Shown here in pieces: positions 15,211-61,095 of a stretch of 64,000 nucleotides of DNA. The DNA comes from Amylostereum areolatum (lineage: Eukaryota; Basidiomycota; Agaricomycetes; Russulales; Stereaceae): positions 124,001 through 188,000 of the forward strand of contig SAXG01000059.1 in NCBI GenBank assembly GCA_012932865.1, written 5' to 3'. A program made the position numbers and the translations under genes. A model generated the notes under the pieces. That model saw nothing but the letters and a program-made list of their open reading frames with translations, was not told the DNA's origin and searched no databases. Positions within the stretch are counted from its first letter, which is position 1, and each line of letters opens with the position of its first letter.

Positions 15211-15218
15211 ATTGTAGC
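15211..15218. repeat. Target-site duplication, left copy (ATTGTAGC)
   Basis: This 8-bp sequence directly precedes the terminal TAGTGTTGCC at 15,219 and is repeated exactly at 30,063-30,070. Eight-base duplications are the hAT-superfamily rule. Confidence 0.9.
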
Positions 15219-15715
15219 TAGTGTTGCCGCAGCTCCGAGATTTATTAGCTCCGAGCCGAGGTTCCGGCTCTGATCTGTACCTAGCTCGATGGATCGCGGA
15301 CCTTAATTCATGCCTGTTCTACATCTAACGAACAGAGCATCATGTCAGCTTGTGTCTCGGCTCAGAGTCGGTCAACGGAGTCCCGAACTGCCTAGTTGTT
15401 GACATGTTACCAGTCAATGTGGAGATCTCGTCAGCCCACGCGTGTAGCGAATGCCACACCTGTCGGATGCAGGGACCGTCTTTTATGAGTACTGACTCCC
15501 AAGCACGATATACATACAAGCGAAAAATGACTACAGATAATACAAGAATCCGCGCCGCATCGCCCTCTCCGCAGGGAGAGGAGATCCCCACGTCCACCGC
15601 TCCCTAACAATACAACCCGCGCGCGAGCTCCGCCTTGAGCTTTTTCACCTCGCACGCACACCTGGTCTTGACCTCTCATCTGCACAGGTTATACAGCAAC
15701 TGAGTGCATGTTCGG

Positions 15716-17600
15716 CTAGATTGTGCGGTGAGCACGCGAACACGAACGAGGGGAGGAGTTGTGCGCAGGAGTTGTGCGTGCTTCCTCATGTACGTGGTCT
15801 GCTAACATTCCATGCGCCTTGAGCCGAACTGCGAACACGAAAAATGTGTTGATCAGTATCAAGAAACACCAGTTCGATACATAGGAAAGGGGGACGTACA
15901 ATTACGGTCCAGGCTGCCAAGTAGCACCACCTTTGCCATGCCCTTCGTATCACGCTCACATCCACACTCGCCATCGCCACCGAGGATCGCCGAATGGTCG
16001 ACCCAATGCTCGTCCTTCCAGACCGCTGCGCGGAGGATGAGGTCGTCCATATTGCACTCCCATGCGCCCTCGCCCTCGCCGCTGAAATCGACCACTTCGC
16101 TGCGGACATTGAGAGAACTGAGGTAATTGCCGCGTGACGTTTGCACCTTGAGCGAGGTTGAGTGCGAACGAACATGGGAGATCAAGAAGGCGACGGCCAA
16201 TTTTGCAGCCTCGCCGAGCGCAGTGGCGTTGGTCCCCAGTCCATCGAGCTCCATGATGACAGGGAGCGGGACGACAACAGTCCATCGTCCGCTCTCCCCA
16301 TCGCAAGCGATGACAAAAGGATGTTGGTATCCATAATGAGGACGCTGAACCCAGGGACGAGCTTGAGAGAAGGCCGGACGGATCCTTTGGGAGCAGCGTG
16401 CGGGCATTTGCGCCTCTGGGTTGGTGGCGCCGACGAGGTCGGGGGTGATGCGCTGCGTTGCACTGGCTGAAGCAGGTTGCGAAGATAGCGCCGGCGAGCC
16501 TACAGAAATGAGAGGGGTGAAGGCAATGAGCATCAAACTTCGCTCTCAAGCAAAAAGGCTGCCATACCTTGAGCTCTCGAACCTCCTCCGTATCCTCATC
16601 GCCGTCCTCGCTCTGGCTGGAAGACTCGCCAGGGTTATCTATGCCGTCGGCGTCCACTTCCATCGTGTCGACGACACTCCATCGGGTGCCCCTCAAGCAT
16701 TGCTTCTCCTCCTCCTCCTTTGCCAAGCGCTCCTCCTGGGCCCACAACACAACCTTCACGGCCAGCGGACCCTCGATGGACCACTCTCGATCGCCGCACC
16801 AGGTGAAGCCGTCCACGAGCCTGGAGAACCGCGCGCCCGCCCACGCGACACGCTGCCAACAAAGATCGGTATCTTCCACGCGATCGCTGTCGTCCTCATC
16901 CACCAACATGCCGTCGTTGCCATCCAAGCCACGCGGTGGTCCGTGCTCATCCAGCACCTCCATCTTGCAGCTCACCGTCATGCTGCCCGACAGCGGCAAC
17001 GCGTCGTCCGGTTCGTCCATTTTCCAGAACCCGCATTCGAAAAGCTAGCGGCCTGTCCAAGCCATACCATGCACGCACCAGTCCTCTGGGAGGGCAGTGC
17101 GCGTGGGGAGCTTTTTCCCGGCGCTTTGGGAATTCGGGAGGGCACGACTGGGTGCTTTGGAGAGGACCAGGGCATAGCGTGTTCAAGCAGCGCCACCACG
17201 TTGTGGGTCTTGAAAACGGTGGCGAGGAAAGTCGGGATGATGGTGATGTAGGAGGTGACACCAGTGTGGGAGGTGACACTATCAAGCGCGTGGGACAGCA
17301 TGGTGAAGGTGAGCTCGACAGTCATTGTAAATGCGGGAGGGGTCGCCTCGGACGCGGATGGCTCGGAAAGAGTGGGCGGAGGCGAGCCAAGGATGGCTTG
17401 AAGTCGTTGAGCTGGATATTTGTGAATAGCATGCCATGCATGAGGACGAACAGGTCCGATGCGCTCAAGTCCAGTTGCGCGCGACGTGCTTGAGCGGCCG
17501 GGGACCACGACTGGATGACGTGCTCGCGCGAGAATGCTGAAGAGTGCGTGGCAATCAAACTGTGCATCAAATACACCGTGTCGATCATGGCAGAGAAAAC
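15716..17600 (-). pseudogene. EST1/SMG6-like gene with PIN domain, broken
   Basis: Relatives act in telomere maintenance or nonsense-mediated decay; the C-terminal PIN domain is a ribonuclease fold. On the minus strand, HGMLFTNIQLNDFKPSLARL (about 17,400-17,460) is the hallmark of the EST1 central domain. It is followed by LTFTMLSHALDS, FLATVFKTHNVVALLEHAMP, MVWLG, CGFWKMDEPDD, then GFSVLIMDTNILLSSL and VVVPLPVIMELDGL of the PIN domain, NMDDLILRAAVW, and KVVLLGSLDRN. A short intron separates this from the last exon with LKAHGMLADHVHEEA and a stop at 15,716. Breaks: the expected WIMMAV-type segment after LARL is missing, a frame shift lies near 17,041-17,052, and a deletion with frame shift near 16,300 separates the PIN Asp motif from the rest. 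It lies inside the giant hAT element and is interpreted as captured and decayed. Confidence 0.72.
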
Positions 17601-18093
17601 GGACTAACCTCTTGCTAAAATGGTATATTGTTCGAAGGTCCTCGCCTTCAACGTCGCGACTGAGTTGATCAAGGTATCGACGAGGCCTATGGTCCCCACA
17701 AGCTCCACATCGCAAGCAGGTGACGCACAGAACGATCACGTGCATACAGGCTCACCAAATGAGACTCTTTTGGACAATTCTCTCGGACGGTCACGGTGTT
17801 TATCTTTTTGTAGCAATCTATAGTACGATAGGTAACTAGTTATGCAATAATAACCAGATTGGTCGAGCTTAAGTGATCTTCGGAATTCAAACAAGTTCGG
17901 CGCTTAATCTGGCTCGCGCAAGGCGCCGCGCCCACAAAACACTTCTTTGACATCTTTGAGACACTGCTCATCCTGATTCCTCGTACGTCCTCGTGTCTCT
18001 TCCCCATCGTCAATGCCTGACTTGCGTTGCAGGAAACACCCCTTCTCAGCCTGCACATACTAAAATTCACCCAGTTTGAGCTCGAAGAAAAGC
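17601..18093. other. Spacer inside the giant hAT element
   Basis: It probably includes remnants of upstream exons of the EST1/SMG6-like gene, but I cannot delimit them. No other motif seen. Confidence 0.3.
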
Positions 18094-18520
18094 ATGTTTC
18101 ACCATCCTCCTCCTCCTCCCGCGCTCTCTGCCACCGCCCGCGTCCGCACGCCGTCCACTGATGCCACGTCCGGAGTCCAGTTCCATGAAATTGCCGGTGT
18201 CGAGATGCGCGAGTGCGTCTCGACGAACAGTGGCGATCTCTGAACTCAGGTCCCCCAGGCCGATCGCGAGTGAATCAAGGCCGACCTTCCCAAACTCGTT
18301 CTCAACGAGTCAAGGTGCATTCGTCCAACCTTCGTTTGCGAACTGGGACTCACGCGTCACAGTCAAATCACTCGCCACACCACTACCCACGCTATTGCCG
18401 CCATCGCTGGGATCAAGGACTCGCAGCCAACTCTCCACATCATCAATGCCCTCTCGATGAAGCTCCCTCCCTTCCAGGTCTTCTCTCCTCTCCGCAAGAC
18501 CCTCCAGCAATATTTCTGAG
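18094..18520 (+). pseudogene. Unidentified coding remnant upstream of the KDEL-receptor fragment
   Basis: From ATG 18,094 the frame reads [20 protein letters not shown], then meets a TGA, continues with QVPQADRE, meets another TGA, and goes on with [14 protein letters not shown] later piece reads [20 protein letters not shown] and [19 protein letters not shown]. The regular amphipathic text suggests a real host protein whose stop codons arose later. I do not recognise the family. It runs into the KDEL-receptor fragment without a clear boundary, so capture of two adjacent pieces, or a fusion during capture, is possible. Confidence 0.4.
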
Positions 18521-18527
18521 TCCGTCG

Positions 18528-18878
18528 GTCGCCATCCTCTCCCAGCTCTTCATGCTCCAGTGCACAGGCAAGGCGGAAACCATCACTACCCACTACCTTG
18601 CCACCCCCGGCGCATACAGGGCTCATTACATACCCAACTGGATGTACCGGTGCGTGCGCGCGGTTTCTCTCTCGGATACGTGCCCTAGAACCGCCCCAAC
18701 AGGCATTTCTCGGAAGGCCTCATCGCCGTCGCCGCAGGCCTTGTTCAAACCGGGCTCTATGTCGACTTTTTCTACGTGTATTTCACAAAGTTCGTCCCCC
18801 ATCCCCGCTCCTCCCTCCCTTATCCACCTAATAACTCTCGCAGTGCTCCAAGGTCAAAAGTTTGAGCTCCCGGCATAA
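18528..18878 (+). pseudogene. KDEL receptor (ERD2-type) C-terminal fragment
   Basis: ERD2 receptors are seven-helix Golgi proteins that return KDEL/HDEL-tagged proteins to the ER. Only the last third is present: [40 protein letters not shown], an intron (18,650-18,702), then [20 protein letters not shown] with VYFTK, a second intron, and [11 protein letters not shown] before the stop at 18,876-18,878. These match the family's last helices and tail. No upstream receptor exons exist here. A one-base shift just before VAIL and loss of a clean donor after VYFTK mark it as a non-functional captured fragment. It lies inside the giant hAT element. Confidence 0.8.
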
Positions 18879-21112
18879 GCCCGTACAGACTGGCACCACA
18901 TTTTATTCATGTACTTAACGTTCCAGAAGTATCTACCCCGTTGCATTGTCCCCACCGCATTACGATCTTCCATGCTCGCTTCCACCCATTTGAGCTGCTG
19001 CGTTCCGGAGGGCTACGTCGGGGGACGTAGTTGTATGCTGGTCATCCACGCGTACCTACTCGTAAGTATGTCAACATGTTTCGTAATAGCCAAAGCATCG
19101 TAAGTTACGGTCCAGCTTACCACATGGCTGCAACGTCGCCGAAGACGTTTAGCTCGGAGACGAAGGTTGGCAAGCTGAAGGAGCAGCAGTTCTTGGTTGT
19201 GTGCGGAATCAACGGTGGTGTACATCAAGTTAGTAGGCGTATTGGCCTGGCTGTCTATGTCAGGTCTAGTTTTCGGGTTCTGATCGCGTTGAATCGGTAC
19301 TCACCATGGACACCTTAGACTGAGACATGTGGTGGGGGGAAAGCTTTGTCGTTTCTGTGATTCTTGGCTAAATAGTGACGTTAGTTGCAGGGTCTCGTGA
19401 CTCCGAAGTTGGCCAAATTGTCGGCTGCCTCTCAGGCCCCCTCACCATTCATATTCGATTGTGAAAACGGTACGCGCTCTCCGTTGCACTCTATATTTTA
19501 CTTGCACATCGCGTACTCTACGGTCCTTATGGGGTAACTCTCGAGATGCGGTGTGCAGTGAGCAGGTCGAGAAAGGCGGCACCACTCACTGCCACTCGCA
19601 CTTCGCAAAACCAACCACCACAGCCCGAGGTCACCCTCGACTTTTCATCCGCATGCGCTCTCTCACTCCTCTCCATTCAGTCCTCCAATAATAACTCTCA
19701 AAGTCCCCCTCTCTCACAGCCTAGCAAACTACACGCGCCTCGCGTCGCGCTGACCATCCCCCCGACCGACTTCACACCACGGACCCTTCTTCGGGAACAG
19801 TGCGTGTTTCTCAAGACTCTGGTCTAACCTCACGGAATAATAAACGATGGCTAGGATGCATTCGGACACGAGTCGTAACGCGGCACACCTAGGTTTAGCA
19901 ATGATATCATGTTTGTACCCTCAATCATGGCTCTTCGGATCCTCTCTTTTTCTCCGGCCTCGCCCTCCCCATCTCCCGAGTATGTTCCCGCACCAGGTGG
20001 GCGTCTGCTGTCCCCCACGCCTACTGCCAGGTTGGGTGTAGCTGTGCCCTCGCCCAGTCGCGAGCGCATGCGTAGTGCCTAAGGTAGCATCCGAGATCAG
20101 TTCGGATTGAGTGGACACCGGAGCCCTTCCCATTCTCCTTCGCCGCCACCTCTGCCCTCTCAGATATCCTCCTCTCCGCCGAACTCGGATACCGCATCGT
20201 CTGATCTATGCACGCAGCACCTCGCGGAGATGGCGCGCGTGTTCTATCTGGGGTATGGGACTCGACGGCGGGGACGGCACCGCCATTGTATCGCGTCTGT
20301 TCCGTCCGAACGTGGCATTAATTAGCAACAATTCTGTGTTTGTACCCTCAAATCTAGTACCGTCTCAAGATCCCTGTGGAATGTTCTACGGCGCGTCGAC
20401 TCCGACGATGTGGAACATCGGCCCCTCGATGTTCCTTCTGAACCAATGGTACACAAACTCGGGTGCTTGCGGAGCTGCTCAGCGTGGAGCTAGTGCTTCT
20501 CGGGAGCATTCAACTCTGTAGAAGCTCAGGGGATGCGCCCCGTGAATTGAAACGCGCATCGTGCAGCGCGGAGATTAAGGTAATCTGCTGTATCGTGCTT
20601 GATGCTCACACACGACAAGCACTCGTGGGTGCAGCCCTTTGCCCACACCTTTTTATCATCCAATGCGGTATCATCGTTTGCACTGTTGCAGGCCGACTTT
20701 TTCCGCAGAAGCCTGGTTTCTTGTTGACTCACGCGCTTTGTCCCGCAGCGCCCTCCTTCGTTATTGAGTTAGGTGCACGAGTCAAGCTGCGTGCTGCCGG
20801 TTTCCTCCTCAAATGTGTACACCCAAGATCTTCTCGTCCCCGAAGGATCCCGCAACCACGTCCGCCATGTTCACATGTTGCGTTAGCCGTCTACCGAGTC
20901 GGTGGCGAGCATCCACATGAACCATCCACGCACAAGGACGAGGTGGGTGATTTCGCTAAGGCAAATCTCATTCGCGGACGTTCATAGCAGCTCAAGTTGG
21001 CTCTATGGGTTCACCTCTCCGTCTCCGGCGATGCGTTAAGTTGTTTCCATCTCTGGCCGTGACAAAGTTCTTTGGTCCCACTAATGCGCGTTCTTTTCCA
21101 GAGCCTCGAGAG
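18879..21112. other. Cargo stretch of the giant hAT element, no gene identified
   Basis: Open frames at 19,461-19,827, 20,107-20,521 and 20,463-20,987 could include decayed exons, but I recognise no family and see no consistent splice pattern. GT-AG-like signals are frequent, which fits further captured and degraded genic DNA. Confidence 0.35.
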
Positions 21113-21120
21113 TATATAAT
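21113..21120 (+). promoter_or_regulatory. TATA box of the hAT transposase gene
   Basis: TATATAAT lies 53 bp upstream of the ATG at 21,173. Position and sequence fit a core promoter; it is the only such motif directly before the gene. Confidence 0.5.
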
Positions 21121-21172
21121 CGACCAACTGTCGCTTGCAAACGTCAGTCGCTCTCAGCGATTCTAGCACCCC

Positions 21173-24100
21173 ATGGCTCCTAACAAACCTCGCGCTCGAC
21201 CCGTTCGCTCTCCTGCAGCCTCTCAGCCGACCGCGCAGGCTACTTCTCAGCAGGCTACTCCTCAGCAGACGACCCTCTCGGATGATACTGCCGAGACCTT
21301 CGACTTGTCTGTCGCAGATGTGGACACCGACGACGGCGGTATGGGGCCCCGGGATATAGTTATTTTTTCTATCTTCTCACGGGGTTTTTCTTCCTCAGAT
21401 TCTCAAGGTGCGTCGCAGCCGGCCGCTCCGCAAGCGACACGCACAAAGTCCGGCACGAAGTCCAAATGGCCACCACGCCAAGCTGAAGACAGTACTCAAC
21501 GTCGCTCCCGCGGAAAGGTCCTCCTCGGAAGAAACGTCGCGAAGCCCGCATCCGATGTATCTATCGCGCCCCCCACCCCCATCAACCCGACCCAGCAAGC
21601 GTCTGGCCCGGTCGGCAAACGATGGGACATCACCTACTTCTTCGACCAAGATACTCTGGCCGCTGACGGGAAGAAGCGGAAGTGGTGCCGCCTTTGCATG
21701 TGCATTTTTTTTTTACCTTCAATCCGCAGAACGAGCTGACCGCTTACCGTAGGAACGTGCTCTACGAGAAGGGCCCAGACCATGTCTTCCACTCCGAAGT
21801 CACTTATAGCGCCGGGTCGGGCTACACGGCCGTCAACAAGCATCTTTATAACGAACACCTCGAGGAGTACGACGACGCGTGCGAGAAGTATGGGTGGCGA
21901 AACCAGTTCATCGACTCTCCGCCCCCTGAGCTCGAAGAAGTTCAAGAGGAAGAAGTCAGGCCCGAGTTCTCTGATGCGGCGTTCCATAATGCTTTGGTGC
22001 AGTTCATCGTTGCCGACGACCAGGTTCGTCATTCTCCTTCTCGCTTTTGTCTCGATTTGCTAATGAACCCTCGCTATGAACTTCGCAGAGTCTCAACGTT
22101 ATCGAGTGCCCCGAGTTTCGCCACCTTCTCCTCCTTCTCCGCGAGGATCTACGAGACGTGAATATTCCGCGTCACACAAAGCTCCGGGAGTTGATCTTGT
22201 TGAGCTGGAAGGATTTCTTTGACAAGCTGAAGCGGGAGCTTTTTGTAAAACTATCTTGTATTTCGTCGCGCCATTTTTCCGACTGATTATGACAACGCGT
22301 AGCATGCTGAAGGGAAAATTTCCCTAACCGCGGACCTTTGGTCTCGTCTCAACCTCTCCTCATATATCGCAATCACTGCGCACTGGATCTCCTGTCGCAC
22401 TGTCCAGGGTGTTGATCATCTCTCCTTCAATTCGGCCGTCATCGCTTTTCATCGGCTTGCCGGAAAGCACACTGGAGCTAACATCGCCCGAGTCGTCTAC
22501 TACCTAATCAAGCGGGCGGGAATCGAAAGAAAGGTAAGGTCACACAATGGCCCCGTCTGTTCATGTGACATCTGCTCATTGATCCACAGCTTGGACATTG
22601 GACGCTCGATAACGCTTTCAGTAACACAACATTCTTAGCTTGCCTCCGAGATCTACTTGCGGCCGACGGCATCATCTTCGACCCCGTCGACCAGCGTATA
22701 TGCTGCTTCCCCCACGTTATTAACATCTGCGCGCAGCATGTTATCAAGGCAGCCGGTGCCTCTGTCGCACAGACCAAGAAGGTCGTGATCCTGGAGGACG
22801 ATGAACCCACAAACGGGGAGGACGATGGCAGCGACTGGGGCGAGGATATATCCCTTCCCATCGTCACTGATGACGACACCGACAGCTCCTTCGACAATCT
22901 GGAAGAAGAGTTCGAAGCTATCATTTCTTCGATGAGCGATGCCACAAGGCGCAACCTCGTCGACGCGGTCTGCGCGATCATTCGCTACACTCGTGGGTCA
23001 GACCAGAGGAAGCAGGATCTCGAGCGGATCATCGTTACCGGCAACGCCACCGAGCTCTTCCGCAACGCACAGGGGGTCCCTACCGAAGTGAAACTCTTGG
23101 AGCTAATCATGTATTCTGCCACACGCTGGGACTCCTTCCAACTTATGCTGCTGAGGATCCGAGAGCTCCGTCCTGTACGTTTACACCTCCTGGACGCACC
23201 TAACCTCTGCTAACCGTCTCGCTGGCATACAGGCCGTGGATCTTTTCCTCTCCAATCCCCCGCACAACTCCAACAACCTCCGGCTCACCAATGACGAGTG
23301 GACACGCGTCGATGAACTGATCCTTTTGCTTGCGGTACGTCATGCTGAGTTCGAACATCCATGGAAGTGTTAATATTGATGCCATCGTCGTGTAGGCCCC
23401 CCATTTCGTCCAGAATTCCATGTCGGGCGAAAAGGTTCCTCTCTTGGCTGGGGCTATCCCGGTTTTCGAGACTTTCCTCACTGCATGGGAAAAAACCAAG
23501 AAGATGCTTCCTCACCTAAGCGGGATCCTCGACGTCGGCCTGAAGTTTGCCTACAAGTACTATAGCAAGATGGATGATACCCGCGCCTACGTTCTGAGCA
23601 TGCGTAAGTCATTTAACACATTCTTTGTCCCCGAGCATTGATCATACCGTCACTGTGGCAGTCGTTCACCCAGCAATACGCCTCGGATGGATCAACGAGC
23701 ATTGGGGCTCTGATTACATCGCTATGGCGCAAGACACAGTTCGCGATACGGTACGTGTCTTTTTTCTTCTAACTGATATCTCACCATTGAGGGGTTTCCC
23801 GTCAGATGGTGGAGTACCGCGAGGCAAAGGCAAGCCGAGCAGGCACCACACGCGCCCCGAGTCGTTCGTCGACTAGGCCAGTCACCCCTCGTAGCGACAA
23901 GCCTGCATTCTTTCAGCTCAACGAAGCATTCAAATCCTTGAACCTGAACCTCGATATGAACATCCGAAGCGGGTCGGAGGCAGTTGACGAAGACGACGCC
24001 GAAGACGACGACGAAGGAAGCGTTGAGCAAGAACTTCAGGCTTACCTCACATCTCGGTCTGTGAGCGAGACCATCGATGTTCTCGGATTTTGGCTGGTAC

Positions 24101-24559
24101 ACCACTCCTCTCTTTTTCGTCTTGTTGTTAGTCTATCTGACGAGTTATCCACGCATACAGAAACATGAAAAGAAATATCCGACCCTCTTCGCTATCGCCA
24201 TGGATTATCTGCCAATTCAGCCTTCGTCCGTTCCGAGCGAGCGCGCATTCTCCTCCGCTTCCGAGACCGACACGAAGAAACGCAACCGCCTGAGCCCCCT
24301 CCTCATGGAGGCCCTTCAAATGATGAAGTTCTCCATCAAGAAGGAGCGCGACGATCCCAGCACTCGCTTTCTAGAGGGATGGCAGACTGACGAGCAGGAG
24401 CTACTGGCCCCGCCGAAGAGGCCGAGGGATTCTGCTCTTCTCGCGAGGTTGACACTGGCACCGTCGGAGGCATCAAAGGGGATCATTGTGGAAAGAATCT
24501 TGGGCATTGAGGGTGATGGCGCTGACGCTGGTGAGGACTCGGGCTCATCCTTCGCTTGA
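21173..24559 (+). CDS. hAT-superfamily transposase, apparently intact
   Basis: It would cut and paste the surrounding element. The ATG at 21,173 sits in a good context. A Ser/Gln/Thr-rich N-terminus is followed by a BED-type zinc finger: WCRLC (about 21,682), an intron, and HLYNEHLEEY (about 21,838). The catalytic core shows SLTADLWSRLN (first Asp, about 22,340), GHWTLDNAFSNTTFLAC (second Asp, about 22,600), TRWDSFQ, and WTRVDELILLL (probable Glu, about 23,300). The C-terminal hATC dimerisation domain reads KYPTLFAIAMDYLPIQ then PSSVPSERAFSSAS (about 24,175-24,270). About nine introns of 45-60 bp join the exons, and every join I traced stays in frame. No premature stop was found. It lies wholly between the ends at 15,219 and 30,062, so it is the likely transposase of the giant element. 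Confidence 0.9.
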
Positions 24560-25285
24560 TCGTTGTCGACTATTTCTTCGTTACGACCTTTTACGACACA
24601 TTTTCTTACCGGCCGCCTGTTGTACGATACTGTAGCTTGAATATTTGTAGTGTGTATTGTATGAATACTATCGTTGTCCATTGGCTTTGAAATTCCCGAG
24701 AAATTCCTTCGAGTTTGTGCAAACATCGAACATCTCGCGACGCGCATTTTGCCTTGAAGCTTGAAGCTTCAACGTTCAACGTTCAACGTTCGACTTTCAA
24801 CTTTCACCTCGTTCTCTATCCACACCTTGCCCTGTTCCCTCGATCCTTCATCTGCAGAGCTCGGAAGGGCCTCGCTTCCAACAGTGCCCGACACCTTGTA
24901 CCAATGATGATGGAGAAACCTCAAAGATCCAGGAATGGACGGGGAAAAAGTAAGTACGTGTGATAAGCCTCCCAGTCCTCACCTTTCAACAACAGCATCG
25001 GTATCTTAGTACCTGCTACAAGCGCATGCGACAGCCACACATGCCCCACGCACATTGCCTCACCATCACCCTCGCAATAGCATCTGCCCGACATCCATCA
25101 ATGGTCGATCCCAGTACTCATTGCCCACCTCTGCGTCATTGACACATAACCCTCCCTCGCCTCCGCCCCCACCACACCAGTGACCTCAGCGAAAGCGAAA
25201 GCGAGGCTGATCATTCCAGCATCGGTCTCACTCCCATGTCGCCCCGCTCTGACGGCGGTAGCACGCTCTTCATCAACTGGAACCC
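24560..25285. other. Spacer between transposase and Ca2+-ATPase remnant
   Basis: The transposase 3' region, then a short TTCAACG-rich array (listed separately), then leader sequence of the ATPase remnant. No other gene seen. Confidence 0.4.
24767..24812. repeat. TTCAACG-type short repeat
   Basis: Adjacent copies of TTCAACG or close variants, preceded by a TTGAAGC doublet. A very similar array, same orientation, lies at 28,403-28,433 on the other side of the Ca2+-ATPase remnant. Confidence 0.7.
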
Positions 25286-27991
25286 ATGTCGACTCCGGCT
25301 CAGACGACGAATCCCGTTCCCCGTCGCGAACCAGCCTCCTTATTCCACCGCCTCAAGCGCCATTCGCGTTCTCCCAGCTGCGAATCCGCGAACAACTCAA
25401 ACGTCGACACTGACGCGAAGAAAGACAAGCCGGAGCACGAGCTTGCGCGTCCCGACCATTTCGACCTCTCTCAAGAGGCCGACTTCGATCCCGCCCCTTT
25501 CGCTTTCAAGCCCTTTCAACTCGCCAACCTCATCGACCCTAAGGACCTCGAGGTGCTCGAGGACATGGGCGGCGTCTTCAGCCTCTTGCGTGGCCTCGGA
25601 ACACATGAAACCCGCGAGTTGGGCAGTGGTCCAGGTCCCGACTCTACCGTGGGAGAAAGTGGACCGTCGCCACAGCCAGACAAGGACAACGACAACATGC
25701 CTAAGCCCGACATCAAGGTTGTCGGTCCTGGCGGCGAAGATGAGGGGCTTCCCAGCCTGCACGCGCCCAGCCTGCTCAGCATGGCTGGTCCGAGCACCGC
25801 TCCACACGGTAACGGCGACCCTCACTCCGCTTCTATCGACAAGTGCAGGGAGGTATTCGGCGCGAACATCCTTCTCACACATGCCAGCAAGAGCCTCTGG
25901 CTCCTTATGTGGCTGGCGCTCAAGGACAAAGTTTTGGTACGTCGCTCCAGTTACGGTCACGTGATTCCAGCGACTTACTCGCTCCCGTCCTAGGTTTTGC
26001 TTTCAACAGCTGCCGTTATCTCGCCCACTCTCGGTTTCTTCCAATATCTCCGTCCCGCGCGCACACCAGGCAAACCCCCTGTCGATTGGGCGGAGGGGGT
26101 AGACATCATCGTGGCCAGTCATGGTCGTGGTCATGGTCGGCTCGCTTAACGACTGACAAAAGGAGCGGCAGTTCAAGGTTCTCAACGCGAAGAAGGAAGA
26201 GCGTTCTATAAAAGTAATTCAGGGCACCGACAAGCGCCTTATCAAGGTGAACGATGTCGTTGTGGGCAATATTGCGCTGCTTGAGCCTGGCGAGATCGTG
26301 CCCTGTGACGGTGTCTTCCTTTCCGGTCATAACGTGCAGTGCGACGAGTCGGGCGCGACGGGTGAGTCGGACGCAATCAAGAAGGCCTCCTACACGGAGT
26401 GCATCGCCCTGCGTGAAGCAAAACTCGCGGAGTGGAACCCGGCAAAGGCGACGGACGATGACGGCGACATGAAACAGAAACCGTCTGGCATGGACCTCCT
26501 CGGCCATACCGACTGCTTCATCGTCAGCGGCAGCAAGGTCATTGAGGGTGTTGGTAGCTATGTTATCATTTCCGTCGGCACAAAGAGTTTCAACGGACGT
26601 ATCATGATGGGTACTTTTCCCGACGGTTTTCCCTCCGCGAGACTCAATGTATGCGAGCTTTTTTTGGACGTGCAGCATTGCGAGGCGATGTGGAGAACAC
26701 ACCCCCCTCGCCAAAACGATCGCGAAAGTCGGAAGCATCGCGGGTCTCATCCTGTTCACGGCACTCATGATCAGATTTTTCGTTCAAATAGGTCAAGGCG
26801 TTCCGGAGAGGTGCGCGCGTATATCACATTTCACTTCCTCCATTGACTGACATATCTGTTTTGAAGGACCGCGAATCAGAAAGGCATAGCTTTCGTCAAC
26901 ATTCTCATCATCGCCGTCACCCTCATTGTTGTCGCCGTCCCTGAAGGTGTGTGGTATTTCGCCGCATGTATGCACCGTCTTTGATGCCACTACCATTAGG
27001 ACTGCCACTGGCCATCACGCTCGCGCTGGCTTTCGCCACTAAGTGCATGACGAAAGAGAACCTGCTTGTGCGCGTTCTCGGCTCTTGCAAAACCATGGCC
27101 AACTCCTCCGTTGTCTGCACGGACAAGACCGGCACGCTCACTCAGAACGAGATGACCGTCGTCACCGGCTCGGTCGGCGTACATGGCAAGTTCGTACGGG
27201 GAGAACAACCAGGATCATCACAACGCGGACTCGATGAACAGGAATCGAGAGCAGGCATCGGATTCGGGCGAGCGCAAGCACAAGATGGATTTCGCCCTTG
27301 ATCTCGCAGACCTCGACAGTGTCATCTCGCCCGCCCTACGCACCCTTTTCAACGAGGCTATTGCGGTTAACTCGACCGCGTTCGAGGACACAGACGAGAA
27401 GGGGCAGGAGGTGTTCATTGGTAGCAAGACGGAGACGGCCCTCCTGAAGATGGCGAAGGAACTCAAATGGCCGAACTACAAGACGACCAGGGACTCGGTG
27501 CAGGTCCTGCAGATGATTCCGTTCTCCAGCGAGCGCAAAGCCATGGGTGTCGTTGTCGGGTTGCCTAACGGATGCGCGCGGATGTATGTCAAGGGTGCCA
27601 GCGAGATTTGACGGAGAAGTGCACCACGCATGTGAGGGTGGACAAGGAGGGCGCGCAGGATGTGAACGGAAAGGAAGTCGAGACACATGAGATCGACAAG
27701 TTGGACGCGGACAACATCTCAAGGACTATTTGGTTCTACACTTCGCAGATGCTTCAGACAATCGCGCTTTGCTATAGAGATCTCGAGTCGTAGCCGCCCC
27801 GGGTGCGCAATGCAACGACGAGAACGAGGCGCGTTCCGCTTTCTTTCCGTCTTCTGCGTGTTTCGTTCTGACTCTGTTTTGCAGGTCACATACGAGGATC
27901 TGGCGTGCGAGCTCACGCTCATCGCTATCACAGGTATCCTCCAGTATAGATCTCCTTGGGTACACAGATTGCTTCGTCGTCAGCGGCGCGG
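25286..27991 (+). pseudogene. PMC1-type Ca2+-transporting P-type ATPase, truncated and mutated
   Basis: The family pumps Ca2+ into the vacuole. Present in order: PFAFKPFQLANLIDPKDLEV and LEDMGGVFSLLRGLGTHETR (N-terminus), LLMWLALKDKVLVLLSTAAV (first helix), GNIALLEPGEIVPCDGVFL and CDESGATGESDAIKKASY (actuator domain), a helix with GSIAGLILFTALMIRFFV, GIAFVNILIIAVTLIVVAVP then EGLPLAITLALAFATK (Ca2+ site helix), and VVCTDKTGTLTQNEMTVV with the phosphorylated Asp. After these comes the nucleotide domain with VFIGSKTETALLKMAKEL and MYVKGASEI. Lesions: TGA at 26,154 replaces the Trp in SLNDWQKERQ; bases are missing after ENTP near 26,705; a T is missing at 27,608-27,611. The gene stops after LTLIAITG, so the rest of the P domain and the last six helices are absent. 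The final 40 bp resemble an earlier part of the same gene. Confidence 0.85.
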
Positions 27992-28581
27992 GCTGGTAGG
28001 TGACCGAGGCAAGGCTTTCACGGTTTCACAGTCAGATACAGCGTCTGGACAGTGGCGGCCCTCTCATGTGCGCCGTTTTTGCAACCTTTGTCGTCTGGAG
28101 AACTCGTGCAGGCTGAAGGGTGGGAACTCAAGGTTGACTTGGACATTATCGGCGGGTGGACGTGGCATCAGCGACATTGATTATTTACCCGTCCAGGAGA
28201 CTGCGTATGTGAGTAGGTTAGGGAAGGAAGGGAAGGGGGCCTAATCAAAGCAGCATAGTACTAGTAAAACGCTCCTGTCGCTTTGGATTCTTCTGTGCTC
28301 GTACTCATAATCAATCATTTTAACCTGGGAGTAAAAATCGGCGGTAATCAGCTGGGTGTGCGTGATCGTGAGAATACATTGGAATCGTGTTGAACATGTG
28401 TATGTTCAACGTTCAACATTCAACATTCAACTATTGTCTCTACGATGAGCTCCCTCAGGCTGGTTCGGTGTATTCTCTTCTTCCTACTCATCTGTAACAT
28501 ATCATTATGTGAGCTGTCATTTCTCTTTGCGTTTGACTTGCTAATCCCACACAGTTACATGTACTTTAGTGGTAACCAACG
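27992..28581. other. Spacer before the casein kinase 1 gene
   Basis: No gene recognised. It includes the second TTCAACG-type array (28,403-28,433) and the probable promoter of the kinase gene, without a clear TATA box. Confidence 0.4.
28403..28433. repeat. TTCAACG-type short repeat, second copy
   Basis: GTTCAACGTTCAACATTCAA and a further copy. Same motif and orientation as the array at 24,767-24,812. Confidence 0.65.
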
Positions 28582-29641
28582 ATGACCGTCGTCGGTTTGA
28601 AGAGAATCGGTGGGAGGTTCCGATTGCAGAAGGTTCTTGGCTCGGGATCCTTTGGTACGTCCATTCCCTCATACATCGCCTTACTCTTTCTGAAAGGTCC
28701 TCTAGGGGAGGTTCATCAGGGCTTCGACTTTATTGCGAAGAAAGACGTCGCAGTCAAGCTCGAGCAAGTGGACTACAAAGACTCAAGTCTCGAGCACGAA
28801 ATCACTGTCTATAGGAGCATTCGTAATGCTCCCGGGGTGCCGCGTGTATACTGGTTTGGAGAAGAGGGGAAATACGATGCGCTCGTTCTCGAGCTCCTAG
28901 GTCCCTCTCTCGACGAGCTCTTTACGCAGTGCAAGAGGAAGTTCAGTCTCCAGACAGTGCTCGCACTGGCAGACCAAATGGTATACAACCACTGGCGACA
29001 TATCCACACACCTGAGCTCATTCACCTACCAGGTTTCGCACTTGGCCACCTTGCACAGCCATGGCTTCGTCCATCGCGACGTGAAACCGTCCAATTTTCT
29101 CATTGGTCCCGAAGCCCGCTCCAAACGCGTGTTCATCATTGACTTCGGGCTTGCTGCTCGATACCGCAACGCAGTCACCGGCCTCCACATTCCGCACCGT
29201 GCCCATCTACCACTAGTCGGCACGTCGCGTTGGGCTTCGGTCAACACGCACATGGGCATCGAACAGTCCCGCCGCGATGACCTCGAGTCCCTTGCCTATG
29301 TTCTCATCTACTTTCTTCGGGGATGTCTGCCATGGCAAAATGTCAAAGGCGACGCTCGCATCCTGAAGGAGAAGAAATCCATCTCTCCGGCTGCACTATG
29401 CCAAGGTCTTCCTGTGGAGTTCACCACATTTCTGACATACACTCGAGAACTTCGCTTTAACGAGGCCCCTGATTATGGGTTTATTCTCTCGCTCTTCCGA
29501 ACACTCCGTGATCAGCGTGAGTTCGGTCTTCCTCACTGTTTCGATTGGGAGCAGTCCGAGCGGAGCCCTGTTGCTTCTGATACCAGCATCATTGACATGG
29601 TTGTTCCGCTGGTCAAGTCTCGGTCTCAGTCTTCAGTGTAG
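28582..29641 (+). CDS. Casein kinase 1 (CK1) protein kinase, intact
   Basis: A Ser/Thr protein kinase of the CK1 family, which acts in signalling, trafficking and cell-cycle control. Three exons: 28,582-28,654, 28,706-28,980 and 29,033-29,641, with GT-AG introns of 51 and 52 bp. The ATP loop GSGSFGEVHQG is created by the first splice. VAVKLEQVD carries the catalytic Lys, SLEHEITVYR the paired Glu, FVHRDVKPSNFLIG the catalytic loop, IIDFGLAARYRN the metal-binding Asp, and GTSRWASVNTHMGIEQSRRD is diagnostic for CK1. The protein, about 318 residues, is essentially a bare kinase domain with a very short tail (SRSQSSV), shorter than most fungal CK1. No stop or frame break was found. It sits near the right end of the giant hAT element and is the only apparently functional host-type gene in it. 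Confidence 0.92.
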
Positions 29642-30062
29642 TAGGCAGGTCGCTTTAACATGCATATACTGACTTGGGATGCTAAAGTTGAATGCTTTCC
29701 ATAGATTGTCTCGGTCTCTGCGAATCTCCAAGATACGATGTGGGCAGCTCTTATCTCGGTGAGTGTAAATATTACATATTGACCGGCATTCTGGTTAATA
29801 AACATTTTAATCAAGGGTTTATCATATTTATTTACCATCTCATCGCCTCATTTACTAGCACTTCGGAGTCTGTACAGTTACCGCATTTATGTATGAAATA
29901 TATACCCGTAGCCGGCTCGGTGATCTCAGAGCCGGTCTCTGAAGCCAGAGCTGTCCTGAGTTTGACATGTTCCTTGAGATAGCTGTCAAGATCAGATCAA
30001 TCGGCATCAGAATTGATGGTCCTTCGAGCCGGTCCACAGCTCCGGGAGCCGCGGCAACACTA
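29642..30062. other. Right subterminal region of the giant hAT element
   Basis: No gene. From about 29,910 it is rich in GAGCCGG, CCGGCTC and AGCTC motifs that recur near the left end. These could be transposase-binding sites. It ends GGCAACACTA at 30,062. Confidence 0.55.
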
Positions 30063-30070
30063 ATTGTAGC
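30063..30070. repeat. Target-site duplication, right copy (ATTGTAGC)
   Basis: Exact copy of 15,211-15,218, immediately after the right terminal inverted repeat. Confidence 0.9.
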
Positions 30071-60304: not shown

Positions 60305-61095
60305 TAGTGTTGCCAAAGTTCGGTTCAGAACCGCGGTCCGAACCTGAACCGACAGAACCGAACCGACAGTTCGGTCCGGTTCTGGTTCTGGTTCTGGCTT
60401 TCACCCATCGGTTCAGGTTCAGGTTCGGGCCGGGGAAGAACCGACAGAACCGGCCCGAACCGCGTTCGGCTGTGCAAGGCCACGTGGCCCTCTCACCTCT
60501 CACCCTCACCTCTCATCCTTCCCCGCCTCTCATCCCACTCCTGCCGAAGTACTCCACACCCTACAACACCACCTCTCCACCCTGGTTCCTTACCCTCCTC
60601 CACAAGGCCAACCTCTGTATTCCTCTACACACACCCCTCCAACACTCTCTATGTGGCCTCGCTCAAGCCTTGCTCTCGACAGGTCCTTCATGCATGAGCC
60701 CATCACTGTTGTGACGACGTCAAGTGACAGATGGCCATTGTCATTGATGGCACATTTGAGCCAAGCAGTCACCATCCCCAGCACCCCCGCACTCCTTGCT
60801 CTTGACCCGCACTCTTCCTTATCACCCTACTGTCTCATCTTGCTACTGTCTCGCTACCCGTTGTCATGTTTCCCCAGGCTGTATGTACTACATCTACTGG
60901 TACTACTAGTAACCACAGAATGCTAAGTGTTCTAAAGCAAAAATTGGGGTTTGAACCGAGTCCGAACCGAGTTCGAACCTGAACCGAGGTTCGGTTCAGG
61001 TTCAGGTTCAGGTTCACCCCCAGAGGTGTCAGTTCAGGTTCAGGTTCGGGCAAGATGGGTCCCGAACCGAACTGAACTGAACTTCGGCAACACTA
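60305..61095. mobile_element. Non-autonomous hAT element, 791 bp, with perfect duplication
   Basis: It begins TAGTGTTGCCAAAGTTC and ends with the complement of TAGTGTTGCCGAAGTTC. GTGGTTGT flanks it exactly (60,297-60,304 and 61,096-61,103). About 170 bp at each end are filled with GGTTCAG/GAACCG hexamers in both orientations, likely transposase-binding arrays. The middle has no transposase. The terminal 10-mer is the same as that of the giant element at 15,219-30,062, so the same transposase could move both. Confidence 0.93.

Follow-up and report, generated by a model that had tools for sequence, protein, structure and literature searches.

The 64,000-nucleotide stretch of Amylostereum areolatum DNA analysed here (C138:124001-188000, hereafter the window; genome of 57.1 Mb in 182 contigs) contains a large hAT transposon, whose features are listed in Table 1. 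Judged from its sequence copies, its 8-bp target-site duplications and the empty sites in the same genome, this locus is one hAT element that is mobile as a unit. Probably it is an intact, apparently autonomous element of ~14.85 kb, present in at least four copies, in which a two-gene core encoding a transposase and a CK1 kinase has been retained while other captured cargo has been exchanged. The kinase, rather than the size, is the interesting part of the element.

Table 1. Features of the hAT element and its flanks (positions within the window)
Feature	Position	Strand	Remarks
hAT element	15219..30062		14,844 bp; three further full copies in the same genome
Left target-site duplication, ATTGTAGC	15211..15218
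Right target-site duplication, ATTGTAGC	30063..30070
Left terminal inverted repeat	15219..15236	+	17/18 positions pair with the right end
Right terminal inverted repeat	30045..30062	-	CK1 side
PIN-domain gene fragment, captured (EST1/SMG6-like, tentative)	15811..17688	-	inner deletion
Repeated-family fragments	17730..18512		up to 91.7% and 87.8% to C112:221242-221876 and other loci
Fragment similar to C126 and C85	18518..18903		~80% alike
Fragment of an open frame on C2	19929..20282	+	86.6% over 374 bp
hAT transposase gene	21173..24559	+	11 exons, 932 aa, intact in 4/4 copies
Broken Ca2+-ATPase (P-type) fragment	25262..27608	+	frame discontinuous in all four copies
CK1 kinase gene	28582..29641	+	3 exons, 318 aa, intact in 4/4 copies

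Ends and transposase

The element has TAGTGTTGCCGC-type ends. Its inverted repeats (18 bp, 17 matching) fall within the range of 5-27 bp quoted for hAT elements in PMC12506042, and identical octamers abut them at 15,219 and 30,062, as a first-pass annotation of the DNA had reported. That annotation put the probability of a chance match at about 1 in 65,000; with the base composition of the window we obtain 1.6e-5 for one 8-bp match, and three further full-length copies carry the case beyond chance. Genome-wide, the exact 12-base end occurs 45 times, compared to 7 times for the reversed control.

Between the ends lies a complete hAT transposase gene, again as first annotated, with an open frame in every copy. 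Its exon model was drawn by us from splice signals and reading frame, and the product contains the C-terminal dimerisation domain of hAT enzymes (Dimer_Tnp_hAT, 44.4 bits versus a cut-off of 21.4). We aligned it with eight relatives. The nearest named ones come from two mushroom-forming fungi, Amanita muscaria (37%) and Grifola frondosa (36%), and the same domain was seen in five of the nine matching proteins, the others being without it. When the genome was searched with the transposase (77 matches), loci on C108 and C98 ranked directly behind the four full copies.

Copies and empty sites

The further full copies lie on C1 (611152-625998 and 634050-648895) and C124 (302319-317173) and measure 14,846-14,855 bp. 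Each differs from the window copy by 86-87 substitutions (99.3-99.4% identity), while a single substitution and a single gap column distinguish the two C1 copies (C1a and C1b). As copies were located via their ends, four is a lower bound. Between the window copy and C1b, 80 of the 87 differences are transitions and 53 are at CpG, a bias that would fit methylated, decaying DNA.

We compared 15 paired-end elements, the window element included. Ten have identical 8-bp flanks, among them those of the window, C124 and C108; C1a, C1b, C112, C161 and C98s do not. The flanks of C112, C161 and C98s are mismatched, and we therefore left these three out of the count of intact insertions. Reversing the interval between the two C1 copies brings their octamers into perfect agreement. 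Hence all four full copies have the 8-bp duplications typical of hAT insertion, those of the window and C124 directly and the C1 pair after an 8-kb inversion is undone. When the C1 flanks were joined in the reversed-back order, both matched a retrotransposon on C95 in a single stretch, over all 392 bases (94.4% and 92.7%). As a control, we joined the flanks as they stand, and these split at the join and matched separate places. On the strength of these flank matches, both C1 copies appear to have inserted into one retrotransposon ~8 kb apart and to have later recombined, inverting the interval. The region C1:611152-648895, with two inverted copies and a flipped 8-kb interval, provides a clean natural example of transposon-mediated inversion.

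An uninterrupted relative of the insertion site exists in this genome for each of the four copies. With the C124 flanks joined through one octamer, all 40 scored places (from 398 candidates) cover the join, over 592 bases and at 97-98%. For the window flanks, the uninterrupted relative lies on C109, is 69% alike and runs without a gap through the octamer; for the site of the C108 element it lies on C98, where CTTTCCTC is present once.

Could the two ends instead belong to separate smaller elements, with 14.8 kb between them by chance or local arrangement? The genome does hold many unpaired ends of the same type, as well as the pairs with unmatched flanks on C112, C161 and C98s. Yet four copies with the same ends and contents occupy unrelated sites, with 8-bp duplications and with empty sites found by joining the flanks. 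These data rule out two small elements, a reading to which we attach almost no probability. Separate small elements, or flanks that never join, were what the first-pass annotation had named as grounds for abandoning its proposal. Run within this genome, that test leaves the single mobile element, with its intact transposase, standing.

A CK1 kinase shared by two diverged families

The element on C108 (202957-216053) is 13,097 bp long and has perfect 8-bp flanks; its inner part recurs on C98 (98.0-98.8% over the compared stretches), where the left end is missing. We compared the proteins of the window and C108 elements, using frames of at least 30 codons and E values up to 1e-4. Only the transposase and CK1 are common to both, and the two genes have the same order and orientation in each element. 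Identity is 29-58% for same-frame pieces of the transposase and 60% overall for CK1, and the distance from CK1 to the element end is ~420 bp in the window element and ~500 bp in C108. In the slot between transposase and CK1, the C108 element carries a 958-codon frame that matches a host frame on C66 (92% in protein, 94.2% in DNA over 3,139 bp). This match is direct evidence that the lineage has captured DNA from its host. We infer that C66 is the source, because its frame is longer (1,096 codons). The gene may be Sec31, although a family search gave no family. The elements on C108 and C98 form a diverged second family, which has only ends, transposase and CK1 in common with the window element and a different host gene between transposase and CK1.

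The window CK1 scores best against CK1 delta and CK1-like chains (320 bits) and keeps the HRD, DFG and VAVK motifs, as expected for a kinase of CK1 delta/HRR25 type. The element CK1s lack the TKKQKY-type loop, owing to a six-residue deletion common to the kinases of the window, C133, C34 and C108 and to P0006 of Artomyces. In the loop alignment, 117 of the 125 rows are full length and 90 have KQKY; three rows from plants have the same shortened length yet retain KKQKY. Genome-wide, 56 CK1 matches were found, and eight loci have this type of CK1, namely the four copies plus C108, C98, C133 and C34. Behind them comes the resident gene on C116, at 50% identity. By direct comparison, CK1 was not found in the elements C120, C112, C161, C102s and C1s, and none of the 56 matches falls inside the other small elements. 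In C34, a window-type end lies ~7.5 kb from the CK1.

Retention of introns had also been claimed, and it holds for CK1: two are present, in the same places as in C116. Descent from an ordinary CK1 gene is therefore plain; the number of captures we infer. The element CK1s form one clade, with support of 98/84 (39 rows), 96/93 (20 rows) and 100/100 (19 rows), and C116 falls outside it. The dN/dS ratio is 0.15-0.22 for the window versus C133 and 0.13-0.19 for the window versus C34. Given a core common to two families, one clade, a shared deletion and low dN/dS, CK1 looks like a long-retained gene of this hAT lineage, kept while other cargo turns over. The earlier description of the element as a carrier of captured genes is supported, but for the intact CK1, long residence in the lineage is a better reading than one more random capture.

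Alternatively, both families may have captured CK1 independently from a host CK1 since lost or unsampled, and CK1 would then be a passive passenger no different from the ATPase and PIN pieces. Captures clearly occur in this lineage, the resident C116 has the same two intron places, and three CK1 types have lost motif residues. For TET/JBP genes, moreover, Kojima allows parallel capture at similar places (PMC12730594). Under independent capture, however, one would have to account for the like order, orientation and distance from the end of CK1 in both families, as well as for the single clade and common deletion that leave C116 outside. We regard independent capture as unlikely, and prefer long retention of CK1.

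Several observations weigh against such retention. C133 and C34 have no transposase match among the 77 found in the genome. The branches of the CK1 tree are long, prompting a warning from the program, and the bootstrap of the 20- and 19-row trees is unsettled. For the window versus C108, dS is saturated, and part of the constraint on CK1 may date from before capture. Finally, HRD and DFG are both altered in the C133 and C34 kinases, and DFG is altered in C108; hence CK1 has not been kept active in every copy.

Two side observations concern this kinase type. At C133:67261-70788 and C34:77734-81238, which are 98% alike, an element-type CK1 adjoins a copy of the PIN gene, an arrangement that differs from that in the window element. 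In Artomyces pyxidatus, the CK1 protein P0006 clusters with the element kinases.

A proposed history of the element

The encoded transposase moves the element by cut-and-paste at 8-bp sites, as its traces, the duplications and empty sites, show. The lineage core consists of the transposase followed by CK1, in the same orientation and near one end, with the slot between them holding family-specific pieces: the Ca2+-ATPase piece in the window element and the long host gene in C108/C98. CK1 would have been gained once, before the families split, and then kept by selection. Other cargo would have been acquired later, as DNA with introns, probably through faulty repair of the excision gap with template switching, in keeping with what is generally known of DNA transposons. 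CK1 itself may help the element, perhaps through repair of the excision break or through the transposase, and in fission yeast a CK1 acts in double-strand-break repair (PMC11583621).

A broader version of this idea, which we put forward tentatively and consider somewhat improbable as a whole, is that a hAT lineage of mushroom-type fungi made CK1 part of its core machinery next to an exchangeable cargo slot. The kinase would raise transposition via excision repair or the transposase, and P0006 would belong to a further element of this kind, which would imply an old and widespread lineage.

With the carrier, its copies, likely donors and empty sites all in one assembly, capture can be dated and junctions can be read. 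Should CK1 prove to be a retained helper, this would be a case of a DNA transposon enlisting a signalling kinase of its host, in parallel to TET/JBP on other fungal transposons, and the reasons why a single cargo gene persists while the rest decay could be put to the test.

Captured cargo

The left part of the window element is a mosaic of the PIN piece, the repeated-family pieces and the piece of the C2 frame. The PIN fragment scores 34.6 bits to PIN_4 (cut-off 21.9) and matches C103 at 90.1% over 1598 bp and 91.9% over 321 bp. The frame on C103 reaches 20.7 bits to EST1_DNA_bind, slightly below the cut-off of 22. The EST1/SMG6 name is thus tentative, based as it is on the PIN match plus a sub-threshold EST1 match. 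No family was found in a family search with the repeated-family fragments, which may be of transposon type. The Ca2+-ATPase fragment scores 63.6 bits to PF00122 and 66 bits to PF13246. No donor in this genome exceeded the family cut-off among the best 8 of 73 candidates, the only ones scored, so the absence of a donor is not proven. Outside the four copies, identity to this piece is at most 50% in this genome. The piece may derive from another genome, or its donor may have been lost or lie outside the assembly. In the C124 copy, the part of the ATPase piece equivalent to 26828-27676 of the window contains eight single-base insertions and numerous substitutions that only C124 has, which reflect either conversion from another source or an assembly error.

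Host gene copies with a counterpart elsewhere in the genome are present in both families (C103 for the PIN piece, C66 for the C108 gene). Of the four or more host-derived genes or fragments counted in the first-pass annotation, CK1, PIN and ATPase are clear, and the rest match repeated or unidentified loci. By eye, junctions of the captured pieces are sharp, with little or no microhomology, but they are too few to support any mechanism. We considered direct repeats as footprints of capture (24774-24802/28404-28432 at the ATPase piece and 19895-19924/20322-20351 at the C2 piece) and dropped this reading because no direct repeat clearly brackets the host-gene piece of C108.

Large size could in principle come from nested retrotransposons rather than from captured genes. 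This holds for a relative, the 29,037-bp paired-end element at C95:326018-355054, with perfect CCCAGCGG flanks, of which ~18.3 kb is a retrotransposon (537-bp repeats, 99.3% alike) that is itself interrupted; C112 and C120 match the same retrotransposons. The window element, however, has no match to those retrotransposons and no long direct repeats, and it shows domains of gene families. Nested retrotransposons are therefore rejected as the cause of its size, the probability of this explanation being very small.

Relation to known elements

The first-pass annotation called such cargo unusual for hAT elements. The cargo is real, but gene capture by fungal hATs has been published (PMC3538342, PMC6710886, PMC12730594). 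In Pyrenophora tritici-repentis, a histone H3-like gene is carried by a likely autonomous hAT of ~5.6 kb with a full-length transposase (PMC3538342), and in Pseudocercospora fijiensis by hATs of 9.5-9.9 kb with 8-bp duplications (PMC6710886). Like the window element, these are fungal hATs with captured genes between their ends. As described, they carry one small gene in many copies, whereas the window element has several gene pieces, a CK1 also found in the second, diverged family, and family-specific cargo. The hAT7 elements of rust fungi carry TET/JBP genes, and the TET-bearing IS3EU elements, likewise of rusts, have an alpha-kinase gene (PMC12730594). These resemble the window element in having a captured enzyme gene beside the transposase, in an order conserved in some families; hAT7, however, has 7-bp duplications and a different enzyme, and the kinase of IS3EU is an alpha-kinase, in another superfamily (PMC12730594). 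ToxhAT is similar in size (~14.3 kb) and in having several genes between inverted ends, but its ends are 74 bp long and its duplication is TA (PMC6737239, PMC12506042). Its authors now assign it to Tc1/Mariner (PMC12506042).

A parallel to Pack-TIR elements had also been suggested. Pack-TYPE transposons of plants do share captured coding DNA between ends, but they are described as non-autonomous (PMC8903248). The parallel stops there, since the window element has its own intact 932-aa transposase in all four copies. In the literature searched, which excluded subscription papers and preprints, no CK1-carrying hAT was found. The novelty lies in the pairing of transposase and CK1, which recurs in two diverged families, each with its own cargo between the two genes.

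Starships are likewise fungal carriers of gene cargo. They move by a tyrosine recombinase, unlike the hAT enzyme of the window element, and are usually far larger. The comparison may serve as an analogy only. Pfam scans of 20 frames from the window gave no Starship captain, and no search directed at captains was made.

A smaller element of 791 bp lies elsewhere in the window (60305-61095). It has related ends (TAGTGTTGCC...) and the 8-bp flank GTGGTTGT on both sides, and is probably a non-autonomous hAT. The genome contains many further occurrences of its right-end sequence.

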